From: a virus
Direction: 5' to 3' (one strand)
DNA: 47,166 nucleotides
Virus record (IMG/VR): IMGVR_UViG_3300009098_000002
Span: 1-47,166 of that record
Below, in pieces: positions 27,379 to 47,166 of the stretch (position 1 is the first letter of the stretch; each line of letters starts with the position of its first letter). Made by a program: the position numbers and the translations under genes. A model generated the notes under the pieces. That model saw nothing but the letters and a program-made list of their open reading frames with translations. It did no database searches and was not told the DNA's origin.

Positions 27379-27970
27379 TGATTAGTTTCACCGCTTCCCG
27401 CCATCCTAAAATGTCATCGTCCCGCCACAAACTGCACACGTCACCACACGCGACCGTCGTTTGCAGCGCGCGGCAGAAGCCAGTGGGACTATCCCACTTT
27501 TCCGTCTTGCCGTCCACGATGTAATGATCGCAATCATCGCCGCCGTCGCAGCCGCCGCAGTTCGCGCCGCCATGTTTCAGTCCTGGTTTCGGTGCGTTTA
27601 TCCAAACGAGTCCCATGTAATCGGGATCACCGGCACCAAAATAATCAATGTTCTTGGAAACTCCGTAGGTATGCATGGAGCAGCAGGGCCAGTATTCGAT
27701 GTCATTGTTGGTGATGTTCTGAATCGGGGTTCGCGCCCCAATGAGAGCGCAGTGTTTGTCATTGCGGAGAAATACGCAATTCGCGCAACTGGCTGGCTCA
27801 TTGTGCATCTCCTCGGCGGTGGTGAACAGCGCTTCGCCCTTGGTGGGCACGATCGGGGTATCGACTTCGGGCAGGGATTTCGCGCGGCGCATGGCGTTGA
27901 CTTTCTCGATCTGGCCCGCACCGTAAACCGGGAAGCCGCCCTTCTCGATCTTAAGATCGCTTCGACTCAT
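27371..27970 (-). CDS. Cys-rich protein of unknown function
   Basis: This is a 199-residue protein. Cysteines cluster in the second half: SCANCVFLRNDKHC, WPCCSMHTYG, then CGGCDGGDDCDHY and CRALQTTVACGDVCSL. This could bind zinc or an iron-sulphur cluster, or form disulphides. The C-terminus (WREAVKLING) overlaps the next start. The ATGA overlap with the fibre gene suggests a fibre-related or virion function. Confidence 0.6.
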   Translation of the reverse strand: MSRSDLKIEKGGFPVYGAGQIEKVNAMRRAKSLPEVDTPIVPTKGEALFTTAEEMHNEPASCANCVFLRNDKHCALIGARTPIQNITNNDIEYWPCCSMHTYGVSKNIDYFGAGDPDYMGLVWINAPKPGLKHGGANCGGCDGGDDCDHYIVDGKTEKWDSPTGFCRALQTTVACGDVCSLWRDDDILGWREAVKLING

Positions 27971-30501
27971 TCTTCAGTGCCTTGTACGTTCACAACCACG
28001 CCGCCGCCCAATGCTCCGGTTCCACCAAGTGCGAGGTTTACATTGAGCACGTTTCCTGCGGCTGCGGATAAAACCCCGAAGTACCCCATGTCAATCAGTC
28101 CAGAATTGAATTGCACGCCATTGGTCGTTGCCGCAGCAGCGAGGGGAACAAAAATTACGTACTTGACATTCATATCCGTACTGGAATCTTGAAACGTGAT
28201 CGTAACCGTGCCTGCGGTGGTGGCAAATGCCGCATTTCCTACTACTGTGACTTGAAACTTCAGCAAGCGGAATTTATTGCTGGCTCCTGGCGTCCAGACA
28301 GCGGTATTGCCGGAGGCTGTTGCAATGGCTGCTCTGAAAACGGTTGGGGTACGCTGCTTGCTCCAACCCTTGCGGACAGCATCCGTGGTTCCCGAAAAGG
28401 CTCCACCATAGACGGATTGAGCAACGAAAAGAGGAGCGTTATTAAAACCGGGGTCAGGAAGCGGCACGACGTTCGACGTGTTATCGCCAATCGCAAACGA
28501 ACTGGTAGCACTTTGAATCGAAGCCGAACCCTGCGAAGGCGCTTGCTGGGTCGCCATCGCGCCGATACTGACTGTGCCGGTCCCGGTAATTACGGTGGAC
28601 AACCGCACCCGAAACGAAGCCCATCCGGTTACGTCAACCTGAAATCCTTGATTTGTTGCCGAAAGCGGTTGCGTGCCATTTCCGGTATTCAACGCAGCGC
28701 GCGTCTTTATGTTCGTAGCGTCAATCGGATACCAGTTGGTTCCCGCCGTGGTATCGGAAACCTCAAACGTGATGGTTCCTGCGGTGATTGTGGCGGTGGC
28801 GCTCCAAGAAACAGCGATACCGGCATAGCCGATAATATTGGTCAGGGTGATTGCCGTGTTCGATCCCGTGGCGGAAGTCCATGACCCGGTAACTTCAGGG
28901 ACATTTCCGCCCATAATTCTTTGGCTGCCGTGAAGATCAACGGACTCTAGAACCTGATCGCCTTCCGTCCATGTGGGAGAATTGGCATTTCCAAGAGCTG
29001 GTAGAGTTCCGATATTCGTTGCGTCAGGAGCGGCGTTGTTGTTGGTCAGGTTGCCAGCCGCCGTAACCGTTCCCGTTACGGCTGTTGTCGATCCCGTGTC
29101 GGCAATAACGTGCCCGATCACTGCGGCACCAGCATCGAGTACGGTATGCAGGTTCGTCCCGGTTGGCTGGACTACTGTTACGTTTCCAGTAACTGCGGTC
29201 GTGGACCCTGTATCCGCGATGACATGACCGATGACAGCTGCAGAGGCATCATTGATGACATGCCCGATGACGGCGGCCCCGGCATCCAGCACCGCATGTA
29301 AGTTCGTGCCCGTACCTTGCACCACGGTCACGTTGCCAGTTACGGCGGTCGTCGAGCCAGTATCGGCAATCATATGGCCGATGACCGCTGCGCCTGCGTC
29401 GAGGACGGCATGAAGATTGGTTCCCGTTCCCTGCGTTACCGTGACAGTGCTCGGCGGCGTAAGGGTCGTGATCTGCGCCGCCGTCAAAACAACTGGCATG
29501 GAAGCCGCAGCGAGTGCTTGACCCTGCGAAGGAAGTTTGTCTACGTCCGCCTTGATGGCAGCAAGATTGCCGCCTGCTTCGAGCGCCAACAAGGAAGTAT
29601 TTAGATTCGTTCCGGCATTCGCGGTAACTGTACCGCTCACTGCGACCGTTCCTGTGACTGCGGTAGTTGAACCCGTATCGGTGATGACGTGCCCGATGAC
29701 GGCTGATGAGGCATCGTTAATGACATGCCCGATAACTGCGCTGCCAGCATCAAGGACTGCGTGCAGGTTCGTGCCGGTACCTTGCACTACCGTTACGTTG
29801 CCAGTTACCGCGGTCGTGGAACCTGTATCCGCGATGACATGGCCAATAACAGCAGAACTCGCATCGTTCACCACATGCAGGTTCGTACCCGTCGCTTGCG
29901 TAACCGTTACGGTGCCGCTGACTGGTTGCGTGGCAGGGAAGTTCGATACCGCCACGGTCCCGCTGACCACGGTGTTCAGGTTTCCCGAGTTGTCGGTGGA
30001 AAGCTGGTGCTGATTGGTATCCGGTCCAACGCCCGAAACAAGCACGGGATTGATGGTGCTGGCCGCGGTGCCGTTGGCTTGCGTGCCCTGCACCAAGGGA
30101 TCGGCCCAGACCGCGCTTGTATTGCCCGGCTGTGAAATGGGAATTTGTCCCGCGTGCGTGAGCGTTCCGGTAATCGGAATGCCATTGATTTCCGTGGCGT
30201 CCACAACACCGGTTCCCGAATGCCCCAGTGTGGCGCCCGTTCCGACAACCATGAAAGCGGAAATATTGGTTCCGCTCATGATCTGATCGAAAGTCGGAGC
30301 GCCCCCGCCGCCGCCGCCTTCAATGGAAACCCAGGTATAGGGATTCTGCGACGTGCAGCGTTTCACCAGATGATTCTGAATATCGACCCACAGATCATCG
30401 ACCCAGGGAATCGGGAAAACCTGATCGCCCGCCAGCGAAGTCGAGGACTGGTCTGGCGGGTTGCCCTGCTTATAGATCGTCGGTGGACGGAAGAAACTCA
30501 T
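27967..30501 (-). CDS. Repetitive beta-rich tail fibre protein
   Basis: This is an 844-residue protein. The N-terminus (FFRPPTIYKQGNPPDQSSTS, then a Gly-rich hinge IEGGGGGGAP) may anchor to the tail. The middle (about residues 187-490) consists of repeats built on TGTNLHAVLDAGAAVIGHVI followed by ADTGSTTAVTGNV, with partial copies inserted. The C-terminal part (about 540-844) is a beta-rich domain without repeats. Repeated Thr/Val strands of this type form beta-solenoid or triple-stranded fibres. It likely extends the receptor-binding apparatus. Confidence 0.8.
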   Translation of the reverse strand: MSFFRPPTIYKQGNPPDQSSTSLAGDQVFPIPWVDDLWVDIQNHLVKRCTSQNPYTWVSIEGGGGGGAPTFDQIMSGTNISAFMVVGTGATLGHSGTGVVDATEINGIPITGTLTHAGQIPISQPGNTSAVWADPLVQGTQANGTAASTINPVLVSGVGPDTNQHQLSTDNSGNLNTVVSGTVAVSNFPATQPVSGTVTVTQATGTNLHVVNDASSAVIGHVIADTGSTTAVTGNVTVVQGTGTNLHAVLDAGSAVIGHVINDASSAVIGHVITDTGSTTAVTGTVAVSGTVTANAGTNLNTSLLALEAGGNLAAIKADVDKLPSQGQALAAASMPVVLTAAQITTLTPPSTVTVTQGTGTNLHAVLDAGAAVIGHMIADTGSTTAVTGNVTVVQGTGTNLHAVLDAGAAVIGHVINDASAAVIGHVIADTGSTTAVTGNVTVVQPTGTNLHTVLDAGAAVIGHVIADTGSTTAVTGTVTAAGNLTNNNAAPDATNIGTLPALGNANSPTWTEGDQVLESVDLHGSQRIMGGNVPEVTGSWTSATGSNTAITLTNIIGYAGIAVSWSATATITAGTITFEVSDTTAGTNWYPIDATNIKTRAALNTGNGTQPLSATNQGFQVDVTGWASFRVRLSTVITGTGTVSIGAMATQQAPSQGSASIQSATSSFAIGDNTSNVVPLPDPGFNNAPLFVAQSVYGGAFSGTTDAVRKGWSKQRTPTVFRAAIATASGNTAVWTPGASNKFRLLKFQVTVVGNAAFATTAGTVTITFQDSSTDMNVKYVIFVPLAAAATTNGVQFNSGLIDMGYFGVLSAAAGNVLNVNLALGGTGALGGGVVVNVQGTEE
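29040..29940 (-). repeat. Tandem repeats inside fibre gene
   Basis: Units of about 114 bases (38 codons) recur, with shorter partial units. Conserved codons encode TGTNLHAVLDAG and AVIGHVIADTGS. Copies differ mostly at synonymous sites. Such arrays change length by slippage or recombination and set fibre length. Confidence 0.8.
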
Positions 30502-36286: not shown

Positions 36287-36475
36287 TCAGTACCTCTCGT
36301 CCTTCTTCCGATACGTCCTGAAATCCACCGGATCGCCCGGCTGGCTCTCAATCAAAAACCGATAATCCTGACAACTCTTGCAAAGGCAAAACTGCCACTT
36401 CGATTCCGCCAAATGTACCTCAAACGGTTTCACATAATCCGGGTCCCTGTGTGGTAGTACCCCCAACTGTTTCAT
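36287..36475 (-). CDS. Small Cys-containing protein
   Basis: The product is 62 residues from ATG 36475 (GGAGG five bases upstream, ATGA overlap). Two cysteines in CLCKSC (about 32-37) and a Phe/Tyr/Arg-rich end (DFRTYRKKDERY) are seen. It sits between the RHH protein and the GT-methyltransferase. The function is unknown. Confidence 0.6.
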   Translation of the reverse strand: MKQLGVLPHRDPDYVKPFEVHLAESKWQFCLCKSCQDYRFLIESQPGDPVDFRTYRKKDERY

Positions 36476-36786
36476 TTGCGCCTCCATTTGTAGTTCTCAC
36501 ACCCCGGTATCGGACACGCTTTCGCTCCATAGTTGTGCGAGCATACTTCTACTTTTCCTCCCCGTACAGCAGCCTTTTCCACGATTCCGGCAGACTCCAC
36601 AGCAACTCGATCGGCAATAAACTTCCGTCCCGCATCCGTAGGAATCGCAACATTCGGTTGCATAACTTCATCGTTACAACGTTCTCTAATCCATTGCGCA
36701 AGTGACTGTCCTTCCTTTTCTGCCTTCGCACGCCAGTCCTTCAATTCCTCTTCCGAAACCCGCATCCGCCACATCACGGTTTTCAT
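36472..36786 (-). CDS. RHH-type DNA-binding protein with Cys/His tail
   Basis: This is a 104-residue protein. Residues 1-40 fit a ribbon-helix-helix: VMWRMRVSEEELKDWRAKAE, then EGQSLAQWIRERCND. The C-terminal part (about 80-104) has CSHNYGAKACPIPGCENY, a possible zinc knuckle. It is the first gene of the late minus-strand block. Three copies of TGTCGCTACA lie over its promoter, and the -10 is so close to the ATG that the mRNA may lack a leader. It is likely an autorepressor or the late-block switch. Confidence 0.75.
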   Translation of the reverse strand: MKTVMWRMRVSEEELKDWRAKAEKEGQSLAQWIRERCNDEVMQPNVAIPTDAGRKFIADRVAVESAGIVEKAAVRGGKVEVCSHNYGAKACPIPGCENYKWRRK

Positions 36787-36837
36787 GTCGCTACATTATG
36801 CCGTGTCGCTACACGTGTCAATGGCTTTGTCGCTACA
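36786..36837 (-). repeat. Triple operator-like repeat TGTCGCTACA
   Basis: TGTCGCTACA occurs at 36786-36795, 36804-36813 and 36828-36837 (18 and 24 bases apart). On the minus strand these read TGTAGCGACA, a short dyad (TGT...ACA). They lie upstream of -35, in the spacer, and over -10/ATG. Confidence 0.85.
36793..36821 (-). promoter_or_regulatory. Late-block promoter, leaderless
   Basis: Read on the minus strand: TTGACA (36821-36816), a 17-base spacer, then TAATGT (36798-36793), six bases before ATG 36786. CATAAT with a 15-base spacer is an overlapping alternative -10. Transcription would start at or very near the ATG. Confidence 0.65.
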
Positions 36838-37000: not shown

Positions 37001-37501
37001 CTACTCTTTGGTGGGCTGTATTTCTATCTCGCTGATAACAGAGGACTTTAACTTTTCGGGGTTTGCGGTCTCTGCCGGCGGATCGCTGTGCAATAACACG
37101 TTCAGCGTCTGATTCAGCGTTACGTCACTTGCCAGCCGATTACCTGTAGGTTGCTGATTATCAAAGCATTTATCCAGTAACCAGAGAGCCGCGGATTCGC
37201 TATTCTTCTCTAGGCGAACGTCTAGAGTTTTGAGTGCTGCTGGTACTCGATTCATAGCGCCGGCGCGACCATCTTCCATCATTCGGTCCACGTCCGTTAA
37301 GTTAGTGATATTACGAACCGTATTGACAGCGATGCCTAAGTCGCGTGAAATCTTGGCAGTCGATTCGCCAGCGAGTCTTTTAGCTACAACAGCATTCTTA
37401 ATGGCGGGCGCCTTACGGGTAGAACGTCTATGAACAGTAGGTTGAGTCTTGGGGGGTAGTGTACCTGGGGCTTGTGCCATCTGATTGTTAACCCTGCGCA
37501 T
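37001..37501 (-). CDS. HTH protein, small-terminase candidate
   Basis: This is a 166-residue protein (ATG 37480 is an alternative start). A basic, Pro-rich N-terminus precedes an HTH: IKNAVVAKRLAGESTAKISR, then DLGIAVNTVRNITN. A helical central part (ALKTLDVRLEKNSESAALWL) follows, then a variable acidic tail. The HTH plus oligomerising helices fit small terminase subunits, though a transcription factor is also possible. It is transcribed divergently from the early operon, ahead of the late block. Confidence 0.55.
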   Translation of the reverse strand: MRRVNNQMAQAPGTLPPKTQPTVHRRSTRKAPAIKNAVVAKRLAGESTAKISRDLGIAVNTVRNITNLTDVDRMMEDGRAGAMNRVPAALKTLDVRLEKNSESAALWLLDKCFDNQQPTGNRLASDVTLNQTLNVLLHSDPPAETANPEKLKSSVISEIEIQPTKE

Positions 37502-37579: not shown

Positions 37580-37608
37580 TTGACAGGAAAACACTGTTAG
37601 TGCATACT
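37580..37608 (+). promoter_or_regulatory. Early-operon promoter with dyad in spacer
   Basis: TTGACA (37580-37585), a 17-base spacer, then CATACT (37603-37608). The spacer contains CACTGTTAGTG (37592-37602), an inverted repeat with 4-bp arms. The same site, one base changed, lies in the minus-strand promoter near 39.63 kb. Confidence 0.7.
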
Positions 37609-37620
37609 GGGTTCACTTAA

Positions 37621-37637
37621 GGCAGTAACCAACTGCC
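37621..37637 (+). promoter_or_regulatory. 5'-UTR hairpin before first early gene
   Basis: GGCAGT and ACTGCC form a 6-bp stem with loop AACCA. The ribosome site (AGGAG) starts two to three bases later. The same hairpin-then-SD layout occurs at two further early genes. Confidence 0.65.
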
Positions 37638-37651
37638 ACAGGAGAAAACAA

Positions 37652-37930
37652 ATGAACATCTGCCCTTGCTGCAAACGAGCCATCCCACAGCCCAAAAACA
37701 CGCTAGATAAGCGGATCCTGCAGGACTTGGAACGCGTCAACGCTGCTATTCGCGCTTGCGAGTCTGCGCTGTCTAACCCATTCTTTGCCGATGCCATTGA
37801 CGCAATTAAGGCCGAACGTCTGCGCCTGAACAGGGCATTGACCGATCACCGCTTGCTGTGGTCTCTGTATCGCCGCGCCGACAAAAAGCCTCCCTACTTT
37901 GTCGTGGAAAGTGTCGAGGTGGCAGCATGA
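37652..37930 (+). CDS. First early gene, small CxxC protein
   Basis: The product is 92 residues from ATG 37652, with AGGAGAAAACAA before it. NICPCCKRAIP gives a CPCC knuckle at the start. The rest is helical (DKRILQDLERVNAAIRACES) and ends in a basic, aromatic stretch (YRRADKKPPYFVVESVEV). As the first gene from the early promoter it is a candidate for host takeover or regulation. The function is not recognisable. Confidence 0.75.
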   Translation: MNICPCCKRAIPQPKNTLDKRILQDLERVNAAIRACESALSNPFFADAIDAIKAERLRLNRALTDHRLLWSLYRRADKKPPYFVVESVEVAA

Positions 37931-38133
37931 TTACCATATACGCTTCAGAGCAACGTGGTGGACGAATAAAGATGGTTACGGACAGGGATTGTCTGCCACC
38001 CGACGCGATTCGCACGTCAACCGTATATTTCCCAGATGAAGATTCGATCATGGCGACGGCCGAAATGTACCACGCGCGCGGATTCTCCGTCTGTGTTGAC
38101 TTGGGACATAAGTTTTACGAATACGAACAGTAG
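37927..38133 (+). CDS. Small early protein
   Basis: The product is 68 residues from ATG 37927, overlapping the previous stop as ATGA. A beta-rich start (MITIYASEQRGGRIKMVTDR) is followed by a helix (EDSIMATAEMYHARGFSVCV). The end is FYEYEQ. No family is recognised. Translation is coupled to the first gene. Confidence 0.65.
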   Translation: MITIYASEQRGGRIKMVTDRDCLPPDAIRTSTVYFPDEDSIMATAEMYHARGFSVCVDLGHKFYEYEQ

Positions 38134-38179
38134 GTATCCTCGCAGCGCATCCTTACGGGTGCGTTGCCGGCTGTACCTA
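38131..38179 (+). promoter_or_regulatory. Nested RNA stem before an early gene
   Basis: Outer arms TAGGTA (38131-38136) and TACCTA (38174-38179) enclose an 11-bp inner stem (38142-38152 with 38157-38167, two G-U pairs) closed by loop TTAC. The outer strand abuts the AAGG of the next ribosome site, so folding may control it. Confidence 0.6.
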
Positions 38180-38188
38180 AGGTGAAAC

Positions 38189-38344
38189 ATGAGACAAACT
38201 CACACCGTACCCAAAACCAGCGATATGCAACGCTTGCTTGCAGCTCTGGCCGCCATTCAGATCCTATGCGCGCGCGGCGCCACACTCGAACAGATTCACG
38301 ATGCTGCAGAACGTGCTATTCAGTTACTTACGTCTAGACACTAA
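38189..38344 (+). CDS. Small helical early protein
   Basis: The product is 51 residues from ATG 38189 with AAGGTG five bases upstream. It is mostly helical (MQRLLAALAAIQILCARG, then ATLEQIHDAAERAIQLL). The length and amphipathic pattern suggest a dimerising peptide. No family is recognised. Confidence 0.55.
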   Translation: MRQTHTVPKTSDMQRLLAALAAIQILCARGATLEQIHDAAERAIQLLTSRH

Positions 38345-38346
38345 AA

Positions 38347-38360
38347 GCGCTTACCAGCGC
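38347..38360 (+). promoter_or_regulatory. Short hairpin before an early gene
   Basis: GCGCT and AGCGC form a stem with loop TACC, followed by AGAGGAGAAAAACA and an ATG. Layout and flanks match the hairpin at 37621-37637. Confidence 0.6.
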
Positions 38361-38374
38361 AGAGGAGAAAAACA

Positions 38375-38653
38375 ATGACTTCCGAAGAAATTAAGGCTAC
38401 ACACTTTTTCGCCGGGCCAGATCAGGCATATTTAGACCGAACACTTTGGATCAAGGAAATCGCGTACCAACTGGCCGTGCTGAACGAAACACGCGCCATT
38501 GTGCCCGAATTGGTTGAGGCTTTGAGAGAATTAAGCGGTAGAGCACAAGGCCTGTTAGAGGGTGAACCAGATACCCAAGAACTTTGGGATAAGTTAGGCC
38601 CCGAAATCCGTAACGCTCAGAGAATTATGGCGAAAGTGTACGGACGCCAATGA
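38375..38653 (+). CDS. Small helical early protein
   Basis: The product is 92 residues from ATG 38375 (GAGGAG upstream). It is largely helical (IKEIAYQLAVLNETRAIVPE, LVEALRELSGRAQGLLEG), ending in basic KVYGRQ. No motif is identified. ATGA links it to the next small gene. Confidence 0.65.
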   Translation: MTSEEIKATHFFAGPDQAYLDRTLWIKEIAYQLAVLNETRAIVPELVEALRELSGRAQGLLEGEPDTQELWDKLGPEIRNAQRIMAKVYGRQ

Positions 38654-38742
38654 CGCGCATCATGTGCTGGCTGTTCCCGCGCTGGATTCCCCTGAACGAG
38701 CAAAAGCGCATTGCTTTGCGCCGTGTGAGGCTATCGCTATGA
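38650..38742 (+). CDS. Very short basic peptide
   Basis: The product is 30 residues from ATG 38650. Overlaps of ATGA type exist on both sides, which favours real translation. It is Trp/Pro-containing at the start (TRIMCWLFPRWIPLN) and Arg-rich later (ALRRVRLSL), an amphipathic or membrane-active type. Confidence 0.4.
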   Translation: MTRIMCWLFPRWIPLNEQKRIALRRVRLSL

Positions 38743-38888
38743 CGCTAATCCTCGACATCGTGGCAGCTCTCGCTATCTTTTTTTGGGTTCTGCCCGCCAT
38801 CGGTGAGTTTTTAGAGGATACCGGCGAATGGGCATGGTACATCCTGATTGGCATCATCCTCATTGGCATTGTGGCGGTGACCCTGTGA
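38739..38888 (+). CDS. Two-helix small membrane protein
   Basis: The product is 49 residues from ATG 38739. It has segments LILDIVAALAIFFWVLPAIG and WAWYILIGIILIGIVAVTL with a short acidic loop. An early-made membrane peptide could exclude superinfecting phage or act as a holin. It is coupled to the next gene by GTGA. Confidence 0.6.
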   Translation: MTLILDIVAALAIFFWVLPAIGEFLEDTGEWAWYILIGIILIGIVAVTL

Positions 38889-39328
38889 AACTGACCATTG
38901 TGCTCGCTGTCTTGCTTGCGCCGATCGCCGCCCGCGGTCAAACCGAATGCTTCCGAGATTGCGATTCACCCGAACGGCCAGTATATGATCGGCCGGCCAA
39001 GCCTGAACCTGTCATCAATCGGGAGTTTGTAGCGGATGCGTCTGTAATGGCTGCAGCCTGGGCCGCGGATGCGATCCATACCAGAAGCTATTTATCAGGC
39101 GGTACGTATCGGCATGAATCGGGTGCATTCTTTCCCGGTTCACGCAATACAGCCGCCATTATGGGCGCGTGGGCTGCGGTTGACCTGGGCGCCGCGGTTC
39201 TTGGTTACGAATGGAAGCGCCATGTTTCGAATCGCTACTTGCATCCATTGTGGAGATTGCCCATGCTGATTCGAGCTGGCGAGCACGTACAGGCGATCCA
39301 GTCAACGCATGATGTTTTCACACGATAA
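38885..39328 (+). CDS. Exported early protein
   Basis: The product is 147 residues from GTG 38885. MKLTIVLAVLLAPIAARG is a signal peptide, followed by a Cys pair (ECFRDC) and a helical body. The body has YLSGGTYRHESGAFFPGSRN and AIMGAWAAVDLGAAVLGYEW. The Asp/Ala-rich helices may insert in the membrane. The role of a secreted early protein is open; superinfection exclusion is one idea. Confidence 0.65.
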   Translation: MKLTIVLAVLLAPIAARGQTECFRDCDSPERPVYDRPAKPEPVINREFVADASVMAAAWAADAIHTRSYLSGGTYRHESGAFFPGSRNTAAIMGAWAAVDLGAAVLGYEWKRHVSNRYLHPLWRLPMLIRAGEHVQAIQSTHDVFTR

Positions 39329-39391
39329 TTTTGTGCAGGGCGCTTTTCTTTGTTTTTCCCGTCCTGCCAAACGCGCGGCTGGTAACCGCTA

Positions 39392-39413
39392 GGCTGGGTG
39401 CGTAAGCCCAGCC
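39392..39413. terminator. Convergent hairpin between two gene ends
   Basis: GGCTGGG and CCCAGCC form a 7-bp perfect stem with an 8-base loop. It lies between the plus-strand stop at 39328 and the minus-strand stop at 39415, where a bidirectional terminator is expected. There is no clean U-tract directly after it, but a T-rich run lies at 39345-39360. Confidence 0.5.
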
Positions 39414-39414
39414 A

Positions 39415-39606
39415 CTAATCTTGTGCGATGGTTTCGAGGGCTACAGATTTTTTGGGACGGCCACCATGCTTTTTAAGGATACGCGGCTTATTCCAGTATT
39501 GAGACTTGCACACGCCGCAGCGCCTAGGCTCGCCAACCGGCCGCCAGGTAGCGCCACACCGAGAGCATGTGCATTCAAGCACTTGGACCATCTTTTGGAG
39601 TACCAT
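39415..39606 (-). CDS. Zinc-ribbon protein with basic tail, possible regulator
   Basis: The product is 63 residues from ATG 39606. CTCSRC (about 9-14) and CGVC (about 28-31) make a zinc ribbon. The basic end contains KKHGGRPKKS, an AT-hook-like GRPKK. It sits behind a TTGACA promoter with an operator shared with the early promoter, so it is a good candidate for a phage regulator that sees its own site. A leaderless transcript is expected. Confidence 0.65.
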   Translation of the reverse strand: MVLQKMVQVLECTCSRCGATWRPVGEPRRCGVCKSQYWNKPRILKKHGGRPKKSVALETIAQD

Positions 39607-39613
39607 GCTGGCA

Positions 39614-39642
39614 ATCCTAAGCACTAACGGTGTTCCTGTCAA
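39614..39642 (-). promoter_or_regulatory. Minus-strand promoter with shared operator, leaderless
   Basis: Read on the minus strand: TTGACA (39642-39637), 17 bases, TAGGAT (39619-39614), seven bases to ATG 39606. CACTAACGGTG at 39622-39632 is the reverse of CACCGTTAGTG, one base from the operator of the early promoter. A second sequence match, TTGACAGGAA, opens both promoters. Confidence 0.65.
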
Positions 39643-39659: not shown

Positions 39660-39688
39660 TTGACTCTTATACACGTGGCGTGTATTTT
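39660..39688 (+). promoter_or_regulatory. Plus-strand promoter candidate with 17-bp palindrome
   Basis: TTGACT (39660-39665), a 17-base spacer, TATTTT (39683-39688). ATACACG-TGG-CGTGTAT (39669-39685) fills the spacer, an inverted repeat with 7-bp arms. Its target is unclear: a plus-strand gene begins only at 40183. Confidence 0.5.
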
Positions 39689-39825: not shown

Positions 39826-40083
39826 TCAGGCGGATTTCTTAACGTCTGATAAAAACTCCACCTTGTGCGGTGCGGCCTGCACGGCATCTCCTCGCAGAAT
39901 CTTGGATCGGTTCTCGCGGAACCACTGTGTCACCATTCCTGCCGCCATCTGTTCAATCCATGAATCAATATCGCGTTTGGCAATCTTGGAGAGATTCGCT
40001 GCGCGGTTCAGGGCCGAAAGCTCTAAATCTTGCAGCGCGCTGTCTGAAAAATCGAACAGATCCTCAAGCGATGGAAGGCCCAC
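39826..40083 (-). CDS. Small helical protein
   Basis: The product is 85 residues from GTG 40083 with AAAGGGGA upstream. It is helical (LFDFSDSALQDLELSALNRA; KRDIDSWIEQMAAGMVTQWF), with an acidic start and charged end. The charge pattern and lone position in a regulatory patch suggest a DNA- or protein-binding factor. No family is recognised. Confidence 0.5.
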   Translation of the reverse strand: MGLPSLEDLFDFSDSALQDLELSALNRAANLSKIAKRDIDSWIEQMAAGMVTQWFRENRSKILRGDAVQAAPHKVEFLSDVKKSA

Positions 40084-40182: not shown

Positions 40183-40428
40183 ATGCTGATCTTTACCGGA
40201 AAACGGCTGGCACGTCTGCGCATTAACGTGGACCCCGAAATGATCGAGGCCATTACTCGTCGCGCTATACGAAATGACCGGCCCATCAGCATGGAGATTG
40301 AGCACCTTTTGGAAGTCGGATTGTGCAATGACACGGACGATGATGTCTACGGCCAGTTCAGGCTTTATGCGCCCATCATGGCCCTTCCGCGTCCAGTGAA
40401 ACCCGTTCGGAAAGAGCGCATCGCTTGA
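40183..40428 (+). CDS. RHH-type regulator
   Basis: This is an 81-residue protein. LRINVDPEMIEAITRRAIRN then DRPISMEIEHLLEVG has the strand-helix-helix order of ribbon-helix-helix (Arc/MetJ-like) proteins. The tail is Pro/Arg-rich. It heads a plus-strand run leading to the ERF operon. It may control one of the operator sites in this patch. Confidence 0.7.
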   Translation: MLIFTGKRLARLRINVDPEMIEAITRRAIRNDRPISMEIEHLLEVGLCNDTDDDVYGQFRLYAPIMALPRPVKPVRKERIA

Positions 40429-41153: not shown

Positions 41154-41374
41154 CTCCCGACGAACAGATGGAACAGCGCGCCAACTATTACAAGATCATC
41201 GCGGGCGAAGACGCCATCTTGCGCGAGGCCGGATACATCGCTTGGGAAGAATTTGGGCGCGAGTTCTACGAGCTGGGCCAGCAGGATGCCGAGCGCATCT
41301 GGGCCAAGGCGGAAATTGCCTACGCGAACTACCTAGCCGACATAGCCGAACAAGAGAGGGAAAACTGTGAGTGA
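41150..41374 (+). CDS. Small acidic helical protein
   Basis: The product is 74 residues from ATG 41150 (ATGA overlap). It is rich in Glu, Gln and aromatics (QMEQRANYYKIIAGEDAILR; EEFGREFYELGQQDAERIWA). Eight bases overlap the ERF gene. It may act with the recombinase, but nothing proves it. Confidence 0.6.
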   Translation: MTPDEQMEQRANYYKIIAGEDAILREAGYIAWEEFGREFYELGQQDAERIWAKAEIAYANYLADIAEQERENCE

Positions 41375-42200
41375 CGCGCAACAGGCGCTTGAAGCGAAGC
41401 CCGAAACGACCAAGAAGAATCTTGCCCAGAAGATTCTGGAAATTCAAAACGCGGTTGGCGTGGTCAAGAAATTGGGGAAGTTCGACTCCGCAATGGGCGG
41501 AGGGAATTATCTGCGGATCGAAGATGCGGTTGTAGCTGTCAACAAGCTGATGTGTGCACGCGGCTTGATCTTTACTGGAACGCTTCTCAGTAAGCCGAAC
41601 GCTGAGGATTTTTTCTTGACTCGCGTGCCTCATGAAAAAGGATCAAAGGAAGGTGCGATCAGAAGTGGCTACATGACCAACCTTGTTATGGAATGGACGT
41701 TAGAGGACGCCGAGACAGGCGAAAAACGTTCATGGTGTTTCCCCGGCGATGGGTATGACGGCACAGACAAATCTGTATATAAGGCCATGACTGGCTCTCG
41801 GAAGTACGGAATCACTATCATTTTCAATCTACCAATCGGGAACGATGTTGAGGAGCACGGGACAGTCACATTTGAGGAAGGCAAAGAGAAGCAAAAGAAG
41901 ATTGCTGCAAACAAAGTAGCCGAGGCTGCCGCGCGTGGCGTGCCTTCAGCTCTCGATGCAATGTCCCAAGTCGAACCGGAAAAGAAAATCATCATCACGC
42001 GGCCTGAGGAGTTTAACGGGCATTACATCATTGCATCTGGATATATCGCAGTGCCGCAACTCGATACATTCTTTGCTGATACTGGCTGCAAGCGCCTTGA
42101 CTCCAAGAAAACCGGCAAGACCGGCTGGAAAGTTCCGGCAGACTACGAAAAGAGCCTGCTAGGGATGTGTGAGCGACTGAATATCGAAGTGGAAGGCTGA
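41367..42200 (+). CDS. erf: ERF-family ssDNA annealing protein
   Basis: This is a 277-residue protein from GTG 41367. It pairs complementary ssDNA in phage recombination. Family features: NLAQKILEIQNAVG, then MGGGNYLRIEDAVVAVNKLM, RSGYMTNLVMEWTLEDAETG, and the late KSVYKAMTGSRKYGITIIFN with LPIGND. The last is the ERF signature of Ala/Tyr-rich helix then acidic end. The C-terminal part (about 215-277) is separate, perhaps for DNA or partner binding. With RusA and HNH enzymes it fits recombination-led replication. Confidence 0.85.
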   Translation: MSDAQQALEAKPETTKKNLAQKILEIQNAVGVVKKLGKFDSAMGGGNYLRIEDAVVAVNKLMCARGLIFTGTLLSKPNAEDFFLTRVPHEKGSKEGAIRSGYMTNLVMEWTLEDAETGEKRSWCFPGDGYDGTDKSVYKAMTGSRKYGITIIFNLPIGNDVEEHGTVTFEEGKEKQKKIAANKVAEAAARGVPSALDAMSQVEPEKKIIITRPEEFNGHYIIASGYIAVPQLDTFFADTGCKRLDSKKTGKTGWKVPADYEKSLLGMCERLNIEVEG

Positions 42201-44823: not shown

Positions 44824-45042
44824 ATGATGACAGGCTCAAGACCCAGGCCCCAGAAGCGGGAATCGGAAGCCAGCACGCGCAAGCGTAAACCAAGATTCTA
44901 CTATGCTGTTCTGTGGCTGAATGTTCGGGATCAGCGCCGAGTCCGTTGGTTTGAGGACTATAACAGGGCGCTTAATTTCAGGGCGCTATTTCCCTACGAG
45001 CGAAGCGCGATGTTCAAAACAACGGGGATAATCGGGCTGTGA
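44824..45042 (+). CDS. Small basic protein, paralogue A
   Basis: This is a 72-residue protein. KRKPRFYYAVLWLNVRDQRR then VRWFEDYNRALNFRALFPYE and RSAMFKTTGIIGL match the protein at 46209-46376 almost residue for residue. The N-terminus is Arg/Lys-rich. It may bind nucleic acid. The gene overlaps the RusA start (GTGA), so the pair is coupled. Confidence 0.7.
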   Translation: MMTGSRPRPQKRESEASTRKRKPRFYYAVLWLNVRDQRRVRWFEDYNRALNFRALFPYERSAMFKTTGIIGL

Positions 45043-46212: not shown

Positions 46213-46376
46213 GCAGAAAAAAGACCAAGTTCTATTACGCCGTTCTTTGGATCAATGTGCGGAATCAGCGAAGGGTTCGTTGGTTCGAAGATTACAACAC
46301 CGCCCTTAATTTCAGGGCACTATTTAGGTATGGGCGAAGTGCGATGTTCAAGACCACTGGGATAGTCGGAATTTAG
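46209..46376 (+). CDS. Small basic protein, paralogue B
   Basis: The product is 55 residues from TTG 46209 (TTGA overlap with the previous stop). KFYYAVLWINVRNQRRVRWF then EDYNTALNFRALFRYGRSAM and FKTTGIVGI differ from the 44824 protein at about eight positions. This is a recent duplication. The function is unknown, possibly nucleic acid binding. Confidence 0.7.
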   Translation: MSRKKTKFYYAVLWINVRNQRRVRWFEDYNTALNFRALFRYGRSAMFKTTGIVGI

Positions 46377-46717: not shown

Positions 46718-47166
46718 AGCTGACGAACGAGCAACTGGCGCAGTGGCGAAATTTGGTTGAACGAGGCGTAAAGCCCACCAAGCCGGGAGATGATACCTTT
46801 ACATATTTCAGAGACGAATTAAAACTTCTCGACCACATCGACGAGCTGGAATCCGAGTTAGCCAGAGAGCGAGCGTCGTCGGCTGCGTTGCTGGAGAAAG
46901 CGATTGCCGCGACCGATGCGGATGTAACAGGCATGATCATTCACACCCTGCGTTCGATGGCCCTGAATCTGAAAGACGACTACCGCAAGTTGATGGAAAC
47001 AGCAGCGGACGCATTCGAGAAGCACCCACGGGTACCACAATCCACCACTGACAAAGCAGGAAATCGGGGACAGGAAGGAATCGCAATGACACCAGAACAT
47101 CAGATTAATCTACTGCTTGACCGAATAGATACGCTGGAATCCGAGTTAGCCAGAGAGCGTGCCTCG
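46714..47166 (+). CDS. Coiled-coil protein, 5' part of junction-spanning gene
   Basis: From ATG 46714 the frame is open to the window end and continues at base 1 to the stop at 357, giving about 228 residues. The first part has KLTNEQLAQWRNLVERGVKP and a coiled coil with ELESELARERASSAALLE. A second, near-identical block (TLESELARERASAAALLE) follows across the junction. The likely origin is tandem duplication with an in-frame fusion, as an internal ATG with its own ribosome site marks the second copy. The function is unknown. Confidence 0.75.
   Translation, partial: MKLTNEQLAQWRNLVERGVKPTKPGDDTFTYFRDELKLLDHIDELESELARERASSAALLEKAIAATDADVTGMIIHTLRSMALNLKDDYRKLMETAADAFEKHPRVPQSTTDKAGNRGQEGIAMTPEHQINLLLDRIDTLESELARERAS
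47044..47166. repeat. Right copy of the 123-bp terminal overlap
   Basis: This is identical to bases 1-123; see that entry. The gene at 46714 passes through it without a break. Confidence 0.95.

Follow-up and report, generated by a model that had tools for sequence, protein, structure and literature searches.

A spacer element shared by two promoters of a soil-type bacterial virus may be an operator for one repressor

The operators of the lambda repressors CI and Cro overlap the early promoters, which are repressed by occlusion, and they are symmetric and clustered. Arc and MetJ are RHH repressors. The repressor of mycobacteriophage L1 recognizes asymmetric operators (PMC1934351). RelB of Escherichia coli binds repeated hexads [A/T]TGT[A/C]A through residues of its β-strand such as R7 (PMC2812701), and its base-contacting residues are 3, 5, and 7 (PMC2812701).

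The two promoters described here, site 1 and site 2, resemble the lambda system in that putative operators overlap early promoters and may act by occlusion. Unlike in lambda, however, site 2 is not symmetric, 2 kb of DNA separate the two sites, and a CI/Cro-like gene was not found. The arrangement would resemble that of mycobacteriophage L1, in which one repressor is served by several asymmetric operator copies in a phage genome; by contrast, no CI-type repressor was identified here, and there are two copies only. A symmetric-operator regulon of the lambda kind is not supported, as the arms reach 4 bp at site 1, at chance level, and 3 bp at site 2, and the proteins scanned between 37652 and 40679 gave no HTH repressor match. 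A MerR-type operator, with a dyad within a 19–20-nt spacer, was rejected since both spacers are 17 nt long. The likeness to Arc, MetJ, and RelB concerns the gene at 36472–36786 and not sites 1 and 2: an RHH protein goes together with short TGT..ACA sites repeated in the promoter of its gene. The copies abut in the relO operator of RelB, whereas those of the triple repeat start 24 and 18 bp apart.

The window, which is the whole stretch of 47,166 bases analysed here, is a complete IMG/VR record of a soil-type bacterial virus. Its first 124 bases are repeated at its end (first match at 0-based position 47,043), which fits a genome of about 47 kb that is circular or terminally redundant. The minus strand encodes the terminase and structural genes, from about 1 to 37.5 kb, and the plus strand encodes the early and replication genes, from 37.65 kb onward. 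A similarity search found no phage records resembling the region. Relatives were collected from IMG/VR with the large terminase (L003–L046, 53–100% identity) and with the Erf protein (L015, 75%; L016, 69%); no closer strains were found with the TerS-position protein or the first early protein as bait. A TerL profile search of genome contigs for the host gave no match, and Rfam and tRNA searches returned nothing. The window also contains internal repeats of about 75% identity at 29058–29933, within the minus-strand gene 27967–30501 (best pair 29174–29450 and 29639–29915), and a duplicated small gene (44889–45035 and 46224–46369), the copies of which are 79% identical and both encode FYYAVLWLNVRDQRRVRWFEDYN-like proteins.

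Table 1 Features of the two promoters and their surroundings in the window
Feature	Positions	Strand	Basis or detail
Conserved Arc/NikA-like RHH protein gene, C-terminal Cys/His motif	36472–36786	-	Profile matches, alignment
RHH gene promoter TTGACA-17-TAATGT	36793–36821	-	Start codon 6 nt after -10
Triple operator-like repeat TGTAGCGACA, three exact copies	36786–36837	-	36828–36837, 36804–36813, 36786–36795
Site 1, putative early promoter TTGACA-17-CATACT, spacer GGAAAACACTGTTAGTG with shared element	37580–37608	+	Letters, promoter scan, syntenic L015 3697+
Site 1 leader	AGGAG at 37640, ATG at 37652	+	
Small zinc-ribbon ORF, 63 aa, CxxC..CxxC, leaderless-type start at 39606	39415–39606	-	Sequence; neutral codon score
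Site 2, putative promoter TTGACA-17-TAGGAT, spacer GGAACACCGTTAGTGCT with shared element	39614–39642	-	Letters, promoter scan, spacer alignment, ATG 7 nt past -10
Promoter-like site TTGACT-17-TATTTT, back to back with site 2	39660–39688	+	Promoter scan
Short RHH-like protein gene, candidate repressor of sites 1 and 2	40183–40428	+	By eye from sequence
Erf-like annealing protein gene	41367–42200		

Site 1 reads TTGACAGGAAAACACTGTTAGTG-CATACT from 37580 on the plus strand, and site 2 reads TTGACAGGAACACCGTTAGTGCT-TAGGAT from 39642 on the minus strand; both are of the sigma-70 type with a 17-nt spacer, and re-reading of the sequence confirmed the coordinates and letters given for them in the preliminary description. 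They are the only promoter-like sites between 34500 and 47166 that match the consensus at 10/12 positions with 17-nt spacing. The motif CAC(T/C)GTTAGTG, which had been reported from both spacers, is present there, and its two exact copies are the only ones in the window, as are the two copies of TTGACAGGAA. The shared element as a whole is asymmetric and about 20 bp long, GGAA(0-2)CAC(T/C)GTTAGTGC, and is positioned between the -35 and -10 boxes of both promoters; the window holds no third clear copy. At site 2 the element is 2 nt nearer to the -35 box than at site 1, which has two extra A residues, so that the -10 boxes of the two sites are in different register.

The syntenic early promoter of L015 (3697, plus strand) supports site 1 as a real promoter, because its -35 flank is conserved: it reads GATAATGCTTGACA, compared with GATTATGCTTGACA at site 1, and keeps GAT(A/T)ATGCTTGACA. 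Its spacer, TCATGCCTAACTTAATA, differs from that of site 1, whereas the leaders of the two, as far as the first ATG, can be partly aligned. In the zinc-ribbon ORF, the first internal ATG (39606) is 7 nt past the -10 box of site 2, and a message starting there would be leaderless. Leaderless genes are marked, according to published work, by TANNNT boxes about 12 bp upstream of the start (PMC3160421). Among the promoters of L003–L046 and the window, leaderless-type starts, counted where an ATG or GTG 4–9 nt after the -10 box begins an ORF of at least 35 codons, follow 22 of 72 promoter-like sites as against 8% of random positions; the 22 are not independent events, because some of the 72 sites are homologous to each other. 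Examples from the window are 39606 and 36786. Promoters of the clade have an A/T-rich extended -35 flank at -9 to -4 before TTGACA, roughly A-n-A-T-T-T before CTTGACA, where the C at -1 had been selected for in the promoter scan. The spacer of the promoter-like site back to back with site 2 contains a perfect dyad with 7-bp arms, ATACACG-TGG-CGTGTAT (39669–39685), which is unique in the window; the 164-codon plus-strand ORF behind it has a negative codon score and was not accepted as a gene.

How far the spacers agree beyond chance depends on what is compared. When the whole window was compared blindly with itself, gaps allowed, the pair of sites scored 20 and ranked 12, and most of 40 shuffled genomes also reached this score. 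The pair is unremarkable by this measure, but it beats chance once both sites are taken as promoters. Aligned without their hexamers, the spacers score 12, which is reached about once per 20,000 shuffles (p about 1e-4), and none of the 25 within-genome promoter pairs with a match of at least 10/12 ranks above them. With slightly more downstream sequence included, the score is 13, reached in none of 3,000 shuffles, and is the best of 124 within-genome pairs at a looser cut-off in the window and 45 related loci. Corrected over the 209 promoter-like pairs in the window that match at 9/12 or better, p is about 0.02. Therefore, the likeness of sites 1 and 2 is probably not due to chance, though this is not beyond doubt.

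The dyad with 4-bp arms that had been described for both sites is present at site 1 only, as CACT gtt AGTG. Site 2 reads CACC gtt AGTG, where the C forms a C:A mismatch in the innermost pair and leaves arms of 3 bp at most. Shuffling the same spacer yields a dyad with 4-bp arms in 14% of cases, and 9–14% of random 17-mers from the window contain one. Because such arms are so common, the dyad is at chance level even at site 1 and was rejected as evidence for an operator.

The preliminary description had proposed the presence of the site in relatives as a check. The joint motif is absent from the IMG/VR viral contigs and from the 45 fetched related loci, and a search of the full records of ten relatives with one mismatch allowed gave scattered matches only, about as many as a reversed control pattern. 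In 257 Gb of genome contigs it matches once, in a Bacteroidales MAG, which is no more than the roughly two matches estimated by chance. No zinc-ribbon gene or RHH-like gene of the 40183 type was detected in the records of L015 and nine other relatives, in a search run without a positive control, so that its empty result carries little weight, and all the relatives obtained are too distant to carry both genes. The check goes against a shared operator as far as it could be run; however, an operator that changes fast would look alike.

Spacers of other promoters in the clade support the operator reading of sites 1 and 2 by analogy rather than by homology. The spacers of 34 distinct CTTGACA promoters of the clade, sites 1 and 2 included, are richer in dyads than shuffled ones, with a net dyad score of at least 4 in 14 of the 34 (6.3 expected) and of at least 6 in three (0.18 expected). 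Examples of operator-like spacers are AACCTAACGCTAGGTT in L021 and AACCCATCGCTGGGTT in L037. Three consecutive early promoters of L033 (3508, 2826, and 2599, minus strand) share parts of CTAAGCG(A/C)TT(T/G)GG, which makes this a second genome of the clade with a spacer element, in other letters, common to several promoters.

The explanation that we favour, tentatively and at somewhat less than even confidence, is that sites 1 and 2 are an asymmetric operator of one repressor encoded by the phage or its host. The repressor would bind the shared element at both sites and occlude RNA polymerase there. Its two targets would be the main early promoter on the plus strand and the promoter of the leaderless zinc-ribbon gene on the minus strand, and the early operon and the zinc-ribbon gene, which are convergent, would be switched or silenced together. 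This reading rests on the likeness of the spacers, the position of both copies between the -35 and -10 boxes, the syntenic L015 promoter for site 1, the leaderless-type start behind site 2, and the operator-like spacers of the clade. It is weakened by the ordinary rank in the blind comparison, the chance-level dyad at site 1 and its lack at site 2, the neutral codon score of the zinc-ribbon ORF, and the lack of a third clear copy, of conservation in the relatives obtained, and of a linked protein. Of the earlier proposal that two promoters share one operator, the more-than-chance spacer element stands; the dyad at both sites, conservation in relatives, and the zinc-ribbon protein as repressor are not supported.

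Candidates for the repressor are, in order, the RHH-like product of 40183, another phage protein such as that of 39826–40083, a host regulator, and the zinc-ribbon protein. The RHH-like protein, recognized as such by eye, is a candidate regulator; its single-sequence structure prediction has two helices and a mean pLDDT of 55, too low for fold searches. None of the proteins scanned between 37652 and 40679 matched an HTH repressor, and the only match to an HTH model, a weak one, was given by the protein at 37001–37501 in the TerS position.

The main rival explanation, which we consider unlikely rather than implausible, is that site 2 is a copied promoter: the zinc-ribbon gene would have arrived with a copy of the early promoter, or gained one by recombination, and no regulator would be involved. 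The 2-nt indel and the asymmetry of the element fit a decaying copy, L015 is without the zinc-ribbon and RHH-like 40183 genes, and the chance level of the pair in the blind search indicates that there is no long duplicated flank. However, the likeness stops at the promoter, with no flanking homology past about 34 nt, and would thus imply a copying event that was very short or long ago and nonetheless left the spacer intact.

It is less probable still that two promoters built on the strong consensus of the clade have spacers that agree by accident. The corrected p value over the 209 pairs and rank 12 in the blind self-comparison leave room for such a coincidence, and TTGACA with its A/T-rich upstream flank is common to promoters clade-wide. 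Against it stands the probability of about 1e-4 for the pair with the hexamers excluded, and by consensus no other promoter of the region is as strong as sites 1 and 2.

Repressors that consist of a single zinc ribbon are unusual. The preliminary description had suggested that the zinc-ribbon protein represses both promoters, its own included, which we regard as very unlikely. Its gene is located directly behind site 2, and the CxxC-CxxC ribbon is accompanied by a GRPKK stretch like an AT-hook core. The case for the ORF as a gene comes from the CxxC-CxxC motif and the promoter; its neutral codon score counts against the proposal. Nothing else points to the protein as a repressor: it has no family match above the cut-off, no homologs in viral contigs, phages, plasmids, or the ten relatives' records, and a single-sequence structure prediction with a mean pLDDT of 56, too low for fold searches. 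The repressor is probably not the zinc-ribbon protein and, judging by sequence, would not be the conserved RHH protein, whose operator-like set lies 0.8 kb away, either.

The latter is the best-supported regulator of the region. Its N-terminal domain matches the Arc-like repressor profile phrog_6506 (E 1.9e-4), and the protein matches the NikA-like family of Pfam with an E value of 3.3e-5 and 24.4 bits, just under the cut-off of 27; at E values up to 0.1, NikA-like matches were obtained for 10 of 14 aligned members. The profiles thus predict the RHH domain of an Arc-like autorepressor, and the promoter of the gene carries a repeated operator-like site, with one copy before the -35 box, one in the spacer, and one overlapping the start codon; three exact copies arose in 0 of 200 shuffles. 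The protein is probably a self-regulating repressor ahead of the terminase and structural genes and is predicted to bind the triple repeat.

Many relatives have RHH homologs in the corresponding position, close to the gene for the large terminase. The homolog's promoter contains three or four copies of a repeat in L015, L006, L016, L036, and L005, a number that was reached in 0 of 200 shuffles in each genome. Measured from the start codon, the copies are mostly located at about -52, -28, and -9; the outer copy of L005 is at -65. Within the alignment the protein of L036 stands far off, with 13% identity to that of the window. The repeat core is specific to each genome and nearly uniform within it: TGTACCCACA in L015, TGTACGCACA in L006, TCCGTACA in L016, GTGGTCCC in L036, and GTACGG in L005. 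At the central four bases the copies agree to 97% within genomes and to 34% between them, a difference never reached in 20,000 permutations that dealt the copies among genomes, but its within-genome part is partly built in because the copies were picked as repeats and aligned by eye; the independent evidence for the repeats is the shuffle test.

Residues 5 and 7 in the N-terminal strand, whose positions match those of RelB contacts, also differ between genomes. R5/E7 is found in L005 and L016, which share the core ACGG when either strand is considered, and in L026, where this core also occurs among weaker repeats. The window protein has M5/R7 (AGCG), that of L015 has T5/K7 (ACCC), and that of L006 has R5/Y7 (ACGC). 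In this small sample the pairing of residues and cores is a hint of a recognition code of RHH proteins. The early promoter of L016 (5750–5790, plus strand) ends with ATCCGCACATG, one mismatch from the start-codon copy ATCCGTACATG of its RHH repeat (4468, minus strand) and at the same place relative to the ATG. The triple repeat is a stronger, firmer, and recurrent operator-like set compared with sites 1 and 2, and no published counterpart was found in the open-licence literature. That the RHH protein of 36472–36786 also binds sites 1 and 2, for which its standing in the region and the recurrence in L016 might speak, is the least probable explanation and is set aside on sequence grounds, because TGTAGCGACA is absent from both sites even with one mismatch.

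It is well known that several phage promoters can share an operator, and asymmetric operators have been described from mycobacteriophages (PMC1934351), to which sites 1 and 2 would add an example. If one repressor holds both promoters, they would provide a first handle on early control in a clade for which a similarity search gave no annotated phage record. It is conceivable, though rather less than an even prospect, that the clade uses spacer operators as fast-changing switches in two circuits. One would be based on a shared early element, as at sites 1 and 2 and the three promoters of L033; in the other, the RHH circuit ahead of the terminase and structural genes, the repressor's recognition strand would change in step with every operator copy from relative to relative, so that relatives no longer cross-regulate. 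The RHH repeats matter more than sites 1 and 2, as they are found in six genomes with a similar three-site layout and different cores. This series of six genomes is natural material for reading the code by which RHH proteins recognize DNA.
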